From Candidatus Latescibacterota bacterium (lineage in GTDB: Bacteria; JAAXHH01; JACQVL01), in contig JACQVL010000242.1 of assembly GCA_016209865.1 (NCBI GenBank), forward strand, positions 1 to 21,375: DNA of 21,375 nt. Reading direction: 5' to 3'. Made by a program: the position numbers and the translations under genes. Shown here in pieces: positions 4,409 through 8,787 of the stretch. The notes under the pieces are model-generated. The model had not been told where the DNA came from and ran no database searches. It saw only the letters and a list, made by a program, of their open reading frames with translations. How positions within the stretch are numbered: position 1 is the first letter of the stretch; each line of letters opens with the position of its first letter.

Positions 4409-4816
4409 CTATCCATTGACGAGTCGCTTGATGCCATTCTTGAGGGTCGAGACGTTGAAATTGATGAGAAGCCCAAGCCAGAGGTTTCGGAGACGTAAGT
4501 ACGTTAAGAGTTGAGCGTCATAAATCGGTTCCATCTTTTCAACAGCCTTCAGTTCAACGATAACCAGATTCTCGACCACAAGATCGAGACGATAGGCACA
4601 TTCGAGATGGACTCCTTTATATTCCACAAGCAGCGGTACCTGCCGTTCAAACGGGATTCTCTGTAGAGCTAATTCGTGACAGAGACACTCCTCATAAGCA
4701 GATTCAAGCAAACCCGGTCCCAAACAGCGATGCACCTCGATAGCTGCCCCAATAATTTTCTTCGATAAAAAATTCGCTTTCCCCTTTGTGTCCTTTGTGT
4801 CTTTGTGGTGAACCAT
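4409..4816 (-). CDS. GxxExxY protein (PD-(D/E)xK nuclease-like)
   Basis: A 135-residue protein. The family signature is GLLESAY (35-41), and the nuclease-like core is RLDLVVENLVIVELKAVE (77-94) with Asp78, Glu88 and Lys90, followed by QLLTYLR (102-108). The family belongs to the PD-(D/E)xK fold; its biological role is not established. The first dozen residues (VHHKDTKDTKGK) are encoded by a repeat copy at 4784-4812, and no later in-frame ATG, GTG or TTG before residue 16 offers an alternative start. The ribosome site is weak. Base composition is visibly AT-richer than in the genes around it, and inverted repeat copies lie on both sides, which together suggest a transferred or mobile unit. It sits 18 nt beyond the end of the respiratory operon. 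Confidence 0.88.
   Translation of the reverse strand: MVHHKDTKDTKGKANFLSKKIIGAAIEVHRCLGPGLLESAYEECLCHELALQRIPFERQVPLLVEYKGVHLECAYRLDLVVENLVIVELKAVEKMEPIYDAQLLTYLRLRNLWLGLLINFNVSTLKNGIKRLVNG
4784..4812. repeat. TTCACCACAAAG-type repeat, inverted, inside the start of the GxxExxY gene
   Basis: Reading the minus strand, the copy starts TTCACCACAAAG and carries two more ACACAAAG-like units. It overlaps codons 2-11 of the GxxExxY gene and faces the 4381-4401 copy. Confidence 0.8.
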
Positions 4817-4834: not shown

Positions 4835-6169
4835 TCATGGCTTCACCGAGGCGGCGCCGCCGGATGGGGGTGGCGCGATCTCTTTCGACAGGTACGCGGC
4901 TAAGGCTTTCAGGTCCGCATCCGCGCCGAGCAGGGGGGGCATGATGTCGCGGTAGGGGTTCTCGCTCCCCTTCTGGAGGACGACCAGAAAATTGTAGATA
5001 CTCTCCGCATCCCGCCCGGCCAGGGAGATGGCGAGCGACCGGTAGCCATGAAGGGTATGGCAGCTCATGCATTGCATCTTGAACATCGCCTCGCCGATAT
5101 CCGGGTTGAGCCGCGCCCAGCGGGCATTCTCGATGAATGGCGTGTTCAATTTCTTCCCCACATCCTGGAGATACAGCCCGTTGGAGTACATGAACCCGCG
5201 GATGGCGAACGGCTTCCGGATCACCTCCCGCGACCATTCCGTCGCGCCCGTCACGAAGAACCCGGCGATGAGCAGGGCGACCGCCTTCGCGCGGGTGAAA
5301 TCCTTCGGGTTGAGGTACGGGCCGAACAGGACGAGGAGGGCGATCGTCACCGTAAACAGTCCGATGAGCATCGCCACCCGTGTCAGGATGCTCAGGTTCC
5401 CCACTCCGGCCGTGGCGATCCCTCTGGTCATCGCCGCCATGCTGGGATCGGGAACCACCTGCAGGTACCAGATCAGGATGAACCCGGCGAACATGTACGA
5501 CGGGATCAGCCAGCGGGAGGAATACCGGAGGAGCCAGATGCGCAAGAACGAGTCGCGGTCGAGCTTCGTCCCCTGGTAGATCCCCCACAGTCCGGCCAAG
5601 GAGAGGGCGACGAAGGCGCGCATGATGAGGGACGGCCAGTACGTCGGGTTGAAGAACCCGCCCCAGAACGACCGGGTGACCAGCCAGGTGCCCGGCGTGA
5701 GCATGAACGTCAGGATGCCGTTGATGATGACCAGGCTGAGGAACGCGGTGGCGGCGTAGACCCAGCCGATCTTCTGGTGCAACTCCGGCGACATTTTCTC
5801 CCAGCCGTAATAGTAGAAGACGAGTGAGGCGACCTCGACCAGGAACACCACCCATTCCATCCCCCAGGCGAACACGAACGTCCGGATGAGCGTGGCGGTC
5901 GCTTCTGGCTGGACGAGGCTGATGGCGAACCAGATGCCCACCCCGGTCGTCGCCCCGGCGACGGCGGTCAGGACGAGGAAGAACCGGGTATGATGATGGA
6001 GAAAATCGAGGACGTCCGTCCGGCCGTGCTTCCGGGCAAAGTATTCCGTCACGGGCAGGAACAGGCCGGCGCCGACGGCAAAATGCGAGATGAACACATG
6101 GATGATCGCTATCAGTCCGATCACCCAACCGCTGCCGATCACGTCGATCGTCCAGGTCGGGTAATTCAT
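4835..6169 (-). CDS. CydA-like membrane protein with C-terminal cytochrome c domain
   Basis: A 444-residue protein. Residues 1-310 form about eight to nine membrane segments resembling cytochrome bd subunit I. The first holds His24/His29 (IIHVFISHFAVGAGLF). A later one, VEVASLVFYYYGWE, places Glu112 eleven residues before the GW motif, as in CydA. The GRQPW quinol-site motif of true CydA is absent. Residues 355-432 are a mono-haem cytochrome c domain, with CMSCH (367-371) for haem attachment and Met410 in IMPP as probable sixth ligand, facing the periplasm. The start at 6169 has GGAG about 9 nt upstream. As last gene after Rieske and cytochrome b, it probably accepts electrons from the Rieske protein in place of cytochrome c1, or passes them on. 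Whether it also holds b/d haems is open. Confidence 0.82.
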   Translation of the reverse strand: MNYPTWTIDVIGSGWVIGLIAIIHVFISHFAVGAGLFLPVTEYFARKHGRTDVLDFLHHHTRFFLVLTAVAGATTGVGIWFAISLVQPEATATLIRTFVFAWGMEWVVFLVEVASLVFYYYGWEKMSPELHQKIGWVYAATAFLSLVIINGILTFMLTPGTWLVTRSFWGGFFNPTYWPSLIMRAFVALSLAGLWGIYQGTKLDRDSFLRIWLLRYSSRWLIPSYMFAGFILIWYLQVVPDPSMAAMTRGIATAGVGNLSILTRVAMLIGLFTVTIALLVLFGPYLNPKDFTRAKAVALLIAGFFVTGATEWSREVIRKPFAIRGFMYSNGLYLQDVGKKLNTPFIENARWARLNPDIGEAMFKMQCMSCHTLHGYRSLAISLAGRDAESIYNFLVVLQKGSENPYRDIMPPLLGADADLKALAAYLSKEIAPPPSGGAASVKP

Positions 6170-6182
6170 CGCGTTCGCTCCG

Positions 6183-6292
6183 ATTTTGGATTTTGGATTT
6201 TAGATTTTGGATGAAGGTTGGATCACCTGCTGAGCCTCGTGTTGCACAATCGTGCGCAGTCAATCCAAAATCCAAAATCTAAAATCCAAAAT
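6183..6292. repeat. Inverted pair of ATCCAAA heptad tracts within the operon
   Basis: Tract 6183-6212 (TTTTGGA/TTTTAGA units) and tract 6263-6292 (ATCCAAA, with one ATCTAAA) are inverted copies separated by 50 nt. Positions 6190-6212 and 6270-6292 are perfectly complementary over 23 bp. The right tract touches the stop codon of the cytochrome b gene. The pair fills the only non-overlapping junction in the respiratory operon and could act as an mRNA hairpin that changes downstream expression. Confidence 0.85.
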
Positions 6293-7332
6293 TACAGCTT
6301 CCCATACGCCAGGATGGTCAGTCCGATCAGCCCGATGGCCGCGGCGATGCCGGCGTACGTCGCCAGCTTCCCCCGGCGCCCGGTCGCGGTCGCGGGGTTC
6401 CACAGCGGGACGATCGCCCAGAGCGCCCCGGCGGCCCCGAACAGGGTCATGGCGACCGGCTCCGGCATCATCTTCAGCAACTGGAATTGAGCCATGAAGT
6501 ACCATTCCGGGTGGATTCCCTGCGGGGCGGGTTTGAGGATATCCGCCTCCGGACCGAGCGGCCACGGGTAGATGGCGGCTAAGATGGAGAGCACGTTGAA
6601 CGCTAACAGCCACACGTACAGGTCGGCGTACAGGAAATTCGGGAAGAACGGGATCGTCCGGTAGGCGTTGGCCCGTTCGACCCCTTCCGGAATCTTGTTC
6701 CCGTGAATCTGGACGAGCAGCAGGTGCAGGCTCAGGATGGCGATGAAGATGCCCGGCAGGACGACCGCATGGAGGGCGAAGAACCGCTGGATCGTCAGCC
6801 CGGTGATGTCCGTCCCGCCCCGGAGGATGTTGGCGATTTCCTTCCCGATCACCGGCGTCCCGGCGGCGACGTCCACCCCGACCTTCGTCGCAAAAAACGC
6901 GATATCGTCCCAGGGCAGAAGATAGCCGGTGAACCCGAAGAGGAACGTCATCCCTAACAGGGCGAGGCCGGTGTACCAGGTCAGGTCGCGGGGCTTCTGG
7001 TACGCCTTCATGAAGAAGACGCTGAACATGTGGACGAAGATCGCCCCGACCATCAGGTTGGCCGACCAGCTATGGATCGACCGGATCAGCCAGCCGAAAT
7101 CGACTTTGGTCATGATGCGCAGGGCCGACGCATGCGCCGTCTCCGCGCCGGGCTGGTAGTGGAACAGGAGCAGCACCCCGGTGACCATCTGGACGAGGAA
7201 GAAGAACAGGGAGATCCCGCCCATGTAGTACCAGAAGGCGTGTTTGTGAATCGGGACCTGTTTATGCAGGGCGGCTTCCTTCAGGGGCGCTAAGGGCAGC
7301 CGTTCCTCAAGCTTTGACAATAAAGTCCCCAT
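6292..7332 (-). CDS. Cytochrome b of bc complex (b6 and subunit IV fused)
   Basis: A 346-residue quinol-oxidising membrane subunit. The four haem-b histidines are His87 (IHSWSAN), His101 (FVHMF), His188 (FALHAVVLP) and His203 (LSLHLLLVQIHG). There are 13 residues between the first pair and 14 between the second, the cytochrome b6 spacing. The Qo-site motif HPEWYF is at 274-279 in a fused subunit-IV-like part (about 230-346) giving roughly seven membrane helices. The position corresponding to the Cys that binds the extra haem c in plastid b6 is Tyr (FWYYMGGI), so that haem is probably absent. The start overlaps the Rieske gene by 26 nt, indicating coupled translation. It forms the core of the complex with the Rieske and CydA/c-type subunits. 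Confidence 0.95.
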   Translation of the reverse strand: MGTLLSKLEERLPLAPLKEAALHKQVPIHKHAFWYYMGGISLFFFLVQMVTGVLLLFHYQPGAETAHASALRIMTKVDFGWLIRSIHSWSANLMVGAIFVHMFSVFFMKAYQKPRDLTWYTGLALLGMTFLFGFTGYLLPWDDIAFFATKVGVDVAAGTPVIGKEIANILRGGTDITGLTIQRFFALHAVVLPGIFIAILSLHLLLVQIHGNKIPEGVERANAYRTIPFFPNFLYADLYVWLLAFNVLSILAAIYPWPLGPEADILKPAPQGIHPEWYFMAQFQLLKMMPEPVAMTLFGAAGALWAIVPLWNPATATGRRGKLATYAGIAAAIGLIGLTILAYGKL

Positions 7333-7801
7333 CCGACGAGACCTCCGTTTTCAACGGCGCTAAAGGGGCCGGGGGCGGACCGGCGATGTTCTTCCCGGTG
7401 TCGGGGTCGTACTGGCCGCCGTGACACGCGCAGGTGATACGGCGAAGGCCGGGGTTATAGTTGACGGTACAGCCGAGGTGGGTGCAGGTGGCTAAGTACG
7501 CCTTGAAGTCGTCCGGGCCTTGCCGGATGACGATCGCCGGTTTGCTCCCGAACTTGAACATCTGAAACTCTCCCGGCTTCAAGGTGAGCGCCGCCTTGAG
7601 GGAGATCTGCGTGACCTTCTCGCCCCCTTCCTCCGCGCTCCCCGACCGGAGGAACCGGACGACCGGGACGATGAACGCGATCGCGTAGAGGCCGCTGACC
7701 ACCCGAATCAGCCATTTGACCACCCCCCGGCGCATGAAGTCCGTTTCCGGCTCGGCCTGCTCGTCAAACTCCCGGTCCAGCGTGCTCCCCAGTTCGCTCA
7801 T
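7307..7801 (-). CDS. Rieske iron-sulfur subunit of bc complex
   Basis: A 164-residue protein with a single membrane anchor (about 28-48) preceded by RRGVVKW, which could be read by the Tat system, and a C-terminal Rieske domain. Box I is CTHLGC (106-111) and box II CACHGGQY (124-131). The 2Fe-2S ligands are Cys106, His108, Cys124 and His127, with disulfide Cys111-Cys126. The usual Ser after His-Gly is Gly129, a change associated with lower redox potential, while Tyr131 is kept. The ATG at 7801 overlaps the stop of the upstream gene as ATGA (7798-7801), so it is preferred to an upstream start that would add 26 residues running inside the previous gene. It passes electrons from quinol at cytochrome b to a c-type haem. 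Confidence 0.95.
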   Translation of the reverse strand: MSELGSTLDREFDEQAEPETDFMRRGVVKWLIRVVSGLYAIAFIVPVVRFLRSGSAEEGGEKVTQISLKAALTLKPGEFQMFKFGSKPAIVIRQGPDDFKAYLATCTHLGCTVNYNPGLRRITCACHGGQYDPDTGKNIAGPPPAPLAPLKTEVSSDGDFIVKA

Positions 7802-8787
7802 AGCGCCAGGCCTTCCTTTCCACGACGGTACATCCAGACAAGGGTATAGAGTCCGATCACCAGGACCGCCAGGAAACACACGACCACCGACCAGTTCGTC
7901 TGCACCGGCAGGTCAGCCAGCCGCTGATGCCCCTCCAGCGCCCCCCGGCGGACCGCATCCCGCAGCGCAACCATGACGACGACCTTGACGACCGCCCAGA
8001 GGGCGAGGAGCCGGTAGAACAGCCCGGCCGGCCGGATGGCGACGAGGACGACGACGAGGGCGGCGAGCAGGGCGAAGTCGATCAAGAACAGCCGGTGCGC
8101 CGCGTCCGCCTGCGCGCCTAAATGCTGCCGGAACAGCCAGCCGCCGGCACCGCCGAGCACGACGGTCACCCATCCCCAGGCCCGTGATTTGTGCAGCCAG
8201 GCGGCCACCACCGTCACGGCGGGCGCGATCGCCCAGAGCCAGCGGAAGATGACGTCGCCGGGGGTGGGGTACAGGTGCGCGCCTAAGGGGTTGGACTGGT
8301 ACGCCGCCGCCCACGTCTCCGGCTTGAGCATCCAGGTGACGTTGTTGGAGAAGAAGTAGGCGATCGTCAGCCCGCTGGCTAAGGAGATGACGAGCCAGAG
8401 CGGGATGCGGCCCTCATGCCGGGTATACCGGGCCAGGTACAGGCAGCCGTAACAGACGATCAACAGGGGAATCGTCAACAGCCAGGGAATCCCCATCAGC
8501 ACCGACGATGTATAGAAAAACGGGGCGTACAGGAGCTGGAGAAACAGCAACGGGGGGATGCCGAGGTTGATGACGAACGCCATGATGACCGGGAGCCGCT
8601 TGAGGCCTTCCATCACCTGGTCTCGCGGCTTTCCGGAGACCGATTCAACGAGGGTGATGATGAGCGTCCCCAGCAGCACCTGGACGGCGAGGAAATGAAA
8701 CCAGAACGTGACGAGCAGCAGCACCCAGAAGAAACTGCCAGGGGCGGGAAGCGGAAGCGGACTGGCCGCCGGGATGTAGGTCTCCAC
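7798..8787 (-). CDS. Bd-like polytopic membrane protein, first gene of bc operon
   Basis: A 329-residue protein with about eight hydrophobic segments. The first, FFWVLLLVTFWFHFLAVQVL, holds His31 and resembles the first helix of cytochrome bd subunit I and of the 444-residue protein three genes downstream. There is no CxxCH motif and no GRQPW motif. The GTG at 8787 has a GGGAG site 6 nt upstream, preferred because no better start lies nearby. It is translationally coupled to the Rieske gene by an ATGA overlap, so it very likely belongs to the same complex. Possible roles are a haem-b-bearing electron carrier or a structural membrane subunit. Sequence alone does not settle this, and the bd relationship is a pattern judgement. 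Confidence 0.75.
   Translation of the reverse strand: METYIPAASPLPLPAPGSFFWVLLLVTFWFHFLAVQVLLGTLIITLVESVSGKPRDQVMEGLKRLPVIMAFVINLGIPPLLFLQLLYAPFFYTSSVLMGIPWLLTIPLLIVCYGCLYLARYTRHEGRIPLWLVISLASGLTIAYFFSNNVTWMLKPETWAAAYQSNPLGAHLYPTPGDVIFRWLWAIAPAVTVVAAWLHKSRAWGWVTVVLGGAGGWLFRQHLGAQADAAHRLFLIDFALLAALVVVLVAIRPAGLFYRLLALWAVVKVVVMVALRDAVRRGALEGHQRLADLPVQTNWSVVVCFLAVLVIGLYTLVWMYRRGKEGLAL

Follow-up and report, generated by a model that had tools for sequence, protein, structure and literature searches.

What kind of enzyme is encoded at a locus where the genes for a Rieske protein and a cytochrome b are enclosed between two genes for membrane proteins resembling subunits of cytochrome bd oxidases? 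This question is raised by positions 4835-8787 of contig JACQVL010000242.1 (assembly GCA_016209865.1; 21,375 nt, the whole of which is hereafter called the window) from a Candidatus Latescibacterota bacterium whose genome of 3.75 Mb is 83% complete. The first of the four genes codes for a bd-like membrane protein, referred to as CydA', and the last one for a CydA-like protein that ends in a haem-c domain, referred to as CydA-c. On balance, it is probable that the operon codes for a quinol:O2 oxidoreductase in which a Rieske/cytochrome b core devoid of cytochrome c1 or f is combined with an OR-C-type oxygen reductase of the bd superfamily, formed by CydA-c and CydA'. We infer that the proteins carry the corresponding haems, assemble physically, pass electrons directly from the Rieske protein to haem c and use O2 as the acceptor.

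Gene organization of the locus

The locus consists of the following parts:

7798..8787, minus strand: CydA', 329 aa, 8-9 predicted membrane helices, GTG start
7307..7801, minus strand: Rieske [2Fe-2S] protein, 164 aa, ligands within the CTHLGC and CACHGG motifs, Pfam match with an E-value of 1.4e-12
6292..7332, minus strand: fused cytochrome b6/subunit IV, 346 aa, haem-b ligands H87, H101, H188 and H203, PEWY at 275-278
6170..6291, no strand: spacer of 122 nt with inverted copies of a dispersed repeat (ATCCAAAATCTAAAATCC...)
4835..6169, minus strand: CydA-c, a CydA-like part with 8 predicted helices (H24, E105, E112, H131, E315, RKP 318-320) followed by a cytochrome c domain
4880..5104, minus strand: cytochrome c domain of CydA-c, residues 356-430, CxxCH at 367-371, invariant M410

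The initial annotation had described four genes on the same strand, which was confirmed, as all the open reading frames (ORFs) were found in their places on the minus strand and the last three have matching Pfam identities. The overlaps it had reported, ATGA between the CydA' and Rieske genes and 26 nt between the Rieske and cytochrome b genes, also follow from the ORF coordinates.

Conservation of the four-gene set

The relatives considered here are the best 80 of 510 obtained from a scan of the GTDB genome collection (bacteria and archaea). In 72 of these 80 loci the genes for CydA', the Rieske protein, cytochrome b and CydA-c occur in the same order and on the same strand, and the median distance between the stop codons of CydA' and CydA-c is 3.0 kb. 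Six more loci lack the upstream genes solely through contig ends, and the remaining two (L035 and L045, from near-identical metagenome-assembled genomes of Melainabacteria) have a clean deletion of the Rieske and cytochrome b genes, which fuses the first Rieske codons to the end of the cytochrome b gene (L035 3180-3345, L045 5860-6010) and keeps CydA' and CydA-c intact and in frame; a locus differing from them by about 1%, L027, has all four genes. Such a neighbourhood is far beyond chance. Furthermore, the pairwise distances of the four proteins are correlated over 73 loci (r from 0.88 to 0.95, with a shuffled maximum of 0.33 in 300 shuffles per pair), that is, the four genes co-evolve. Coincidental neighbours are ruled out by the conservation in 72 of the 80 loci together with the co-evolution.

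According to the record titles, from which the phylum names were taken, the 80 loci belong to about eleven phyla: Acidobacteriota, Verrucomicrobiota, Armatimonadota, Melainabacteria/Vampirovibrionia, Chlorobiota (Thermochlorobacteriaceae), Hydrogenedentota, Sumerlaeota, Planctomycetota, Omnitrophota, Lindowbacteria and Zixibacteria. The suggestion that similar sets may exist in Nitrospirota/Methylomirabilota was not borne out by these titles, which leaves their occurrence elsewhere possible. Nearly all the loci are from metagenome-assembled genomes, and the named isolate among them is Bryocella elongata DSM 22489. Within the source phylum CydA-c was detected in two of 16 genomes scanned, namely the source genome and one sister (73% identity), the latter carrying the complete four-gene set.

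Except for small clade-specific neighbours, no further gene family recurs around the 80 loci, and therefore the operon contains no separate cytochrome c1, CydB or oxidase. A haem-copper oxidase as an operon member was ruled out, as none is conserved around these loci. A short-chain-dehydrogenase-like gene, recognized by eye, lies between the Rieske and cytochrome b genes in a few Acidobacteriaceae (L014 2321-3085, L021 3627-4391, L034 3899-4663, L073 3584-4348), and a gene coding for an Rrf2-family regulator is located divergently upstream in eight acidobacterial loci, namely L018 (133-705), L011, L014, L015, L016, L042, L057 and L063.

The Rieske/cytochrome b module

The ligands of the Rieske cluster (C106, H108, C124 and H127) are 100% conserved, and H87, H101, H188 and H203 of cytochrome b together with PEWY are conserved at 98%. 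The cytochrome b matches Pfam Cytochrome_B (1.3e-46) and a C-terminal/petD family, and for that reason is regarded as a fused b6/IV protein. The haem-cn cysteine of b6 (Cys35) is absent and its position is occupied by tyrosine within a WYY motif present at 98%. Thus, the module has the cofactor ligands and the PxWY Qo motif of bc1/b6f complexes and no c1, f or cc subunit of its own; no gene for cytochrome c1, f or cc conserved with the Rieske/cytochrome b genes was found around the 80 loci. A second Rieske-type cytochrome b gene of the source genome (L110 1161-3238, contig C116) adjoins a multihaem cytochrome c gene, so the source organism has other bc-like units.

CydA-c: the oxygen site and the quinol side

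Three families are recognized among bd-type enzymes: qOR, OR-C and OR-N (PMC13189123; PMC10839748). In the known enzymes H21 and E101 (numbering of Geobacillus 5doq) ligate the O2-binding haem and E378 the neighbouring one, while H186 and M325 ligate haem b558 (PMC8324918). The conservation of cofactor ligands was assessed in 84 CydA-c proteins (81 of the four-gene type and three from plasmids), in all of which H24, E105, H131, R184, E311, E315, R318, K319, P320, C367, C370, H371 and M410 are invariant; at the position of E112, 83 of them have Glu and one has Asp. H24, E105, E112 and E315 align with H21, E101, E108 and E378 of the Geobacillus enzyme, whereas the b558 ligand H186 is replaced by the invariant R184 and the position of the Met ligand is variable. 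The absence of the quinol motif GRQPW, pointed out in the initial annotation, was likewise confirmed: the motif is changed to xRKP, the site in the window protein being E315-VI-RKP. By its aligned residues, CydA-c has therefore retained the oxygen site and lost the quinol/b558 side, with the active-site ligands of the OR-C type (H19, E99 and E445 in E. coli numbering) and neither a quinol site nor b558 ligands.

The CydA-like part of CydA-c matches Pfam Cyt_bd_oxida_I (1.2e-11) and is followed by the c domain with C367-x-x-C-H371. This CxxCH motif and M410 probably provide a His/Met-ligated c-haem, the only c-haem of the operon, which agrees with the earlier proposal of a c-haem carried on a bd scaffold without a quinol site. 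The predicted model (mean predicted local distance difference test (pLDDT) score of 84, 59 sequences) matches CydA chains with Z of 26.8-28.1 and a root-mean-square deviation of about 3 Å over approximately 310 residues. For its tail, matches to cytochrome c6-type domains were obtained with Z of about 5-6.6. As eight helices are predicted and the N-terminus would be outside, as in CydA, the c domain would be situated in the periplasm, where haem c is attached, and beside E315 at the end of helix 8.

The partner subunit CydA'

No Pfam family was assigned to CydA', either in the window protein or in 55 relatives scanned singly, bar single chance matches, and the only match of its sequence to solved structures was a de novo designed protein, by chance. 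Nevertheless, the "bd-like" description given to the first gene was supported by its predicted model (mean pLDDT 90), which matches both CydA and CydB chains with Z of 20-22. The modelled CydA' thus shares the CydA/CydB fold, which on its own does not tell which of the two the protein resembles more. Its invariant residues are H31, P79, Q84, Y87, Y92, R182, R276 and R280, and H31 is located in helix 1 at the position of the H19-type ligand of CydA. The profile of CydA' gives a full-length match (E 2.6e-32) with the partner subunit of the two-gene form described below. CydB as the partner was ruled out, the partner being a CydA paralogue and no CydB being present in the operon or the source genome. 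Hence canonical CydAB is not what is found here: there is no CydB with CydA-c, no GRQPW and no b558 ligands.

The two-gene form of the bd-like pair

Plasmids of Agrobacterium, Thermus and Methylosinus carry a CydA-c gene (30-34% identical proteins) immediately followed by a CydA' gene with no adjoining Rieske/cytochrome b genes. In Acidobacteriota, 49 of the 149 sampled genomes have a match to the CydA-c model. Twenty acidobacterial loci, chosen across the score range and so giving no frequency estimate, were fetched: three contain the four-gene set, 16 contain overlapping CydA-c and CydA' genes, and one has CydA-c alone among the families sought. The two-gene CydA-c proteins show the same ligand pattern in nearly all of the 20 rows. 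In a tree of 78 CydA-c proteins the four-gene and two-gene forms are split by one branch with a Shimodaira-Hasegawa-like approximate likelihood ratio test (SH-aLRT) value of 100; this is a quick tree with several long branches, in which details of the two-gene side are unsure, and, as it has no independent root, it is compatible with either a gain or a loss of the bc genes at that branch.

Because the ligands are invariant and a stand-alone CydA-c/CydA' pair exists, the bd-like parts look, by their sequence, like an OR-C-type module for oxygen reduction that is combined with a bc module. An occurrence of the bd-like homologues away from Rieske/cytochrome b genes and together with CydB had been named in the initial annotation as evidence against it; they were indeed found away from bc genes, but beside CydA' and not CydB, so that only half of this condition applies.

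The same pair bears on the suggestion that the locus encodes two separate co-expressed enzymes, a bc complex and an OR-C oxidase linked by a soluble cytochrome c. This would fit the existence of the oxidase-like pair without adjoining bc genes, as well as its retention in the two Melainabacteria that have lost them, but it is considered quite unlikely, as the operon is not accompanied by any conserved gene for a separate cytochrome c and in 72 loci the Rieske and cytochrome b genes are placed between the bd-like genes, with overlaps, and not at one end of them. Direct transfer is supported instead, because the bc genes lie inside the bd pair and there is no separate cytochrome c.

Oxidases of the host genomes

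The host survey included 44 genomes, in which haem-copper oxidases and CydB were scored over a cut-off; the CydB family was found in 14 of them. Within 10 kb of the haem-copper oxidase there is an NrfD gene in 28 of the 42 hosts with such an oxidase and a cytochrome b gene in 13 of 42, together 38, on account of which the oxidases of those 38 hosts seem to be served by other genes. An NrfD gene near an oxidase is presumed by us to represent alternative complex III. Seven hosts have no detected cytochrome b gene other than that of the operon, and an NrfD gene lies near their haem-copper oxidase. Acidobacterial oxidases have also been reported to be encoded in superoperons, each together with a bc1 complex or an alternative complex III of its own (PMC8407424). 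These observations give circumstantial support to the four-gene unit being a branch parallel to haem-copper oxidases and are also compatible with an electron-exit role.

Several points limit the quinol:O2 reading. Haem-copper oxidases are carried by 42 of the 44 hosts, which therefore need not rely on the four-gene unit to reduce O2, and NrfD is a broad family, which makes the assignment of an own complex III only approximate. In favour of the reading, no haem-copper oxidase over the cut-off, no CydB and no second CydA were detected in the source genome, but this point is weak, as that genome is 83% complete, and the sister genome has two haem-copper oxidases. The only COX1-like match in the source genome is below the cut-off and NnrS-like, and was rejected as an oxidase. 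Residues 323-329 of the CydA-c model are of low confidence, making the place of the c domain uncertain, and H31 of CydA' is no more than a candidate ligand. An oxygen reductase of last resort, for which hosts without a haem-copper oxidase would be expected, was discarded and the confidence was lowered, since the opposite was found.

The same survey is relevant to the idea that the bd-like subunits have no catalytic activity and take the place of cytochrome c1, the whole being a quinol:cytochrome c (or other acceptor) reductase which feeds a haem-copper oxidase or a periplasmic enzyme. The operon without c1 or f, the c-haem on CydA-c, the haem-copper oxidases of the 42 hosts and the lack of the CydA glutamate ligands in CydA' are all in keeping with it. 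Against it, the active-site haem ligands are invariant in the four-gene form and likewise in the two-gene form, while an exit would need none, and most host haem-copper oxidases adjoin other complex III-like genes; we consider it unlikely. The initial annotation had proposed a bc-type complex with a bd-derived electron exit, of which the conserved unit of Rieske protein, cytochrome b and two bd-like proteins holds, but the role of an exit only fits less well with the invariant active-site ligands and the stand-alone pair.

Reduction of nitric oxide (NO) or peroxide by the bd part, for detoxification and not for aerobic respiration, was considered as well. The divergent Rrf2-type regulator upstream of the eight acidobacterial loci speaks for it, and the Rrf2 family often senses NO or iron-sulphur status. 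However, this link is confined to one group and the ligands correspond to those of an O2 site, which makes such a function highly improbable.

Proposed mechanism

As a quinol:O2 oxidoreductase, the complex would oxidize quinol at the Qo site of cytochrome b, with one electron passing via haems bL/bH back to quinone and the other to the Rieske cluster. From there the latter electron would pass to haem c of CydA-c, which would lie on the periplasmic side where CydA has its ninth helix and Q-loop, and on to the E315 haem and the H24/E105 haem, where O2 would be reduced with cytoplasmic protons supplied via E112. In this reading, which is the most economical one, the haem c of CydA-c would stand in both for cytochrome c1 as the acceptor of Rieske electrons and for the quinol site as the donor of the bd part.

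Comparison with known systems

The OR-C family was reportedly defined by Murali, Gennis and Hemp in 2021, and its members have a C-terminal cytochrome c domain. The bd-like part of the locus resembles OR-C in the CydA core with active-site ligands, the lack of a quinol site, the C-terminal c domain and the partner that is a CydA paralogue and not CydB, and differs in having the Rieske and cytochrome b genes between the bd-like genes as a conserved four-gene set. In Nitrospirales an OR-N5 bd-like oxidase is encoded downstream of alternative complex III and their coupling has been proposed (PMC12342949), so that in this case, too, the genes of a bd-family enzyme that does not use quinol are linked to a complex III-type module; the latter, however, is not a Rieske/cytochrome b module, and OR-N is described as separate from OR-C. 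The cluster of Nitrospira moscoviensis includes Rieske/cytochrome b (CIII_1), bd-like_1, bd-like_2 and cytochromes c, and a III-IV supercomplex has been proposed for it (PMC6606698). It is similar in bringing Rieske, cytochrome b and bd-like genes into one region and in the type of hypothesis, but the region is larger and includes genes for separate cytochromes c and one resembling NXR gamma, and the four-gene order was not described there; no homologue of this cluster is among the 80 best relatives.

A complex III/IV combination described in Melainabacteria also has petB/petC beside an O2 reductase, which is a type C haem-copper oxidase in that case (PMC6349859); the same lineages carry the four-gene set at another place. 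The actinobacterial bcc-aa3 III2IV2 supercomplex is comparable in that complex III passes electrons directly to the oxidase with no soluble cytochrome c, yet its oxidase is of the haem-copper type and it contains a dihaem cytochrome cc, whereas in the four-gene set the c domain is part of a bd-family oxidase. Fusions of CydA with multiple c-type cytochromes, lacking cydB, have been mentioned for Delta-proteobacteria and left out of consideration (PMC5322542). In the literature searched, which did not reach the OR-C-defining paper, two reviews or bioRxiv, the four-gene set was not encountered, so that an earlier mention is possible.

Other features of the window

The repeat ATCCAAAATCTAAAATCCAAAATCC and its complement have 148 matches (up to two mismatches) in the source genome, often as inverted pairs, one of which separates the cytochrome b and CydA-c genes at 6170-6291. 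This inserted spacer is missing in the closest relative, L006, where the gap before CydA-c is 46 nt. Directly downstream of the operon, on the same strand, there is a PD-(D/E)XK_3 (GxxExxY-type) gene (4409-4816) with no apparent link to it; proteins of this type are often scattered through genomes.

Significance of the four-gene set

The chances are about even that the locus represents a widespread, previously uncharacterized class of enzymes, which unite a Q-cycle module with a bd-family oxygen reductase in one complex and use a c domain in place of both cytochrome c1 and the quinol site of bd oxidases. In surveys that use CydA/CydB to count bd oxidases, or cytochrome c1 to count bc complexes, the set would be overlooked or misnamed, and CydA', having no Pfam family, adds to that risk. 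The four-gene set occurs in lineages that are abundant in soil and fresh water, among them at least one isolate (Bryocella elongata), and is thus amenable to testing. Textbook bd oxidases take electrons directly from quinol, bypassing complex III and conserving little energy. If the proposed function is true, the Q-cycle together with charge separation at the bd site would approximately double the number of charges moved per electron compared to CydAB, as inferred from known stoichiometries. Acidobacteriota, Verrucomicrobiota, Armatimonadota, Vampirovibrionia and others would then possess a bd-type route conserving energy at two sites and a complex III without cytochrome c1 or f, the electron acceptor of which is built into the oxidase.

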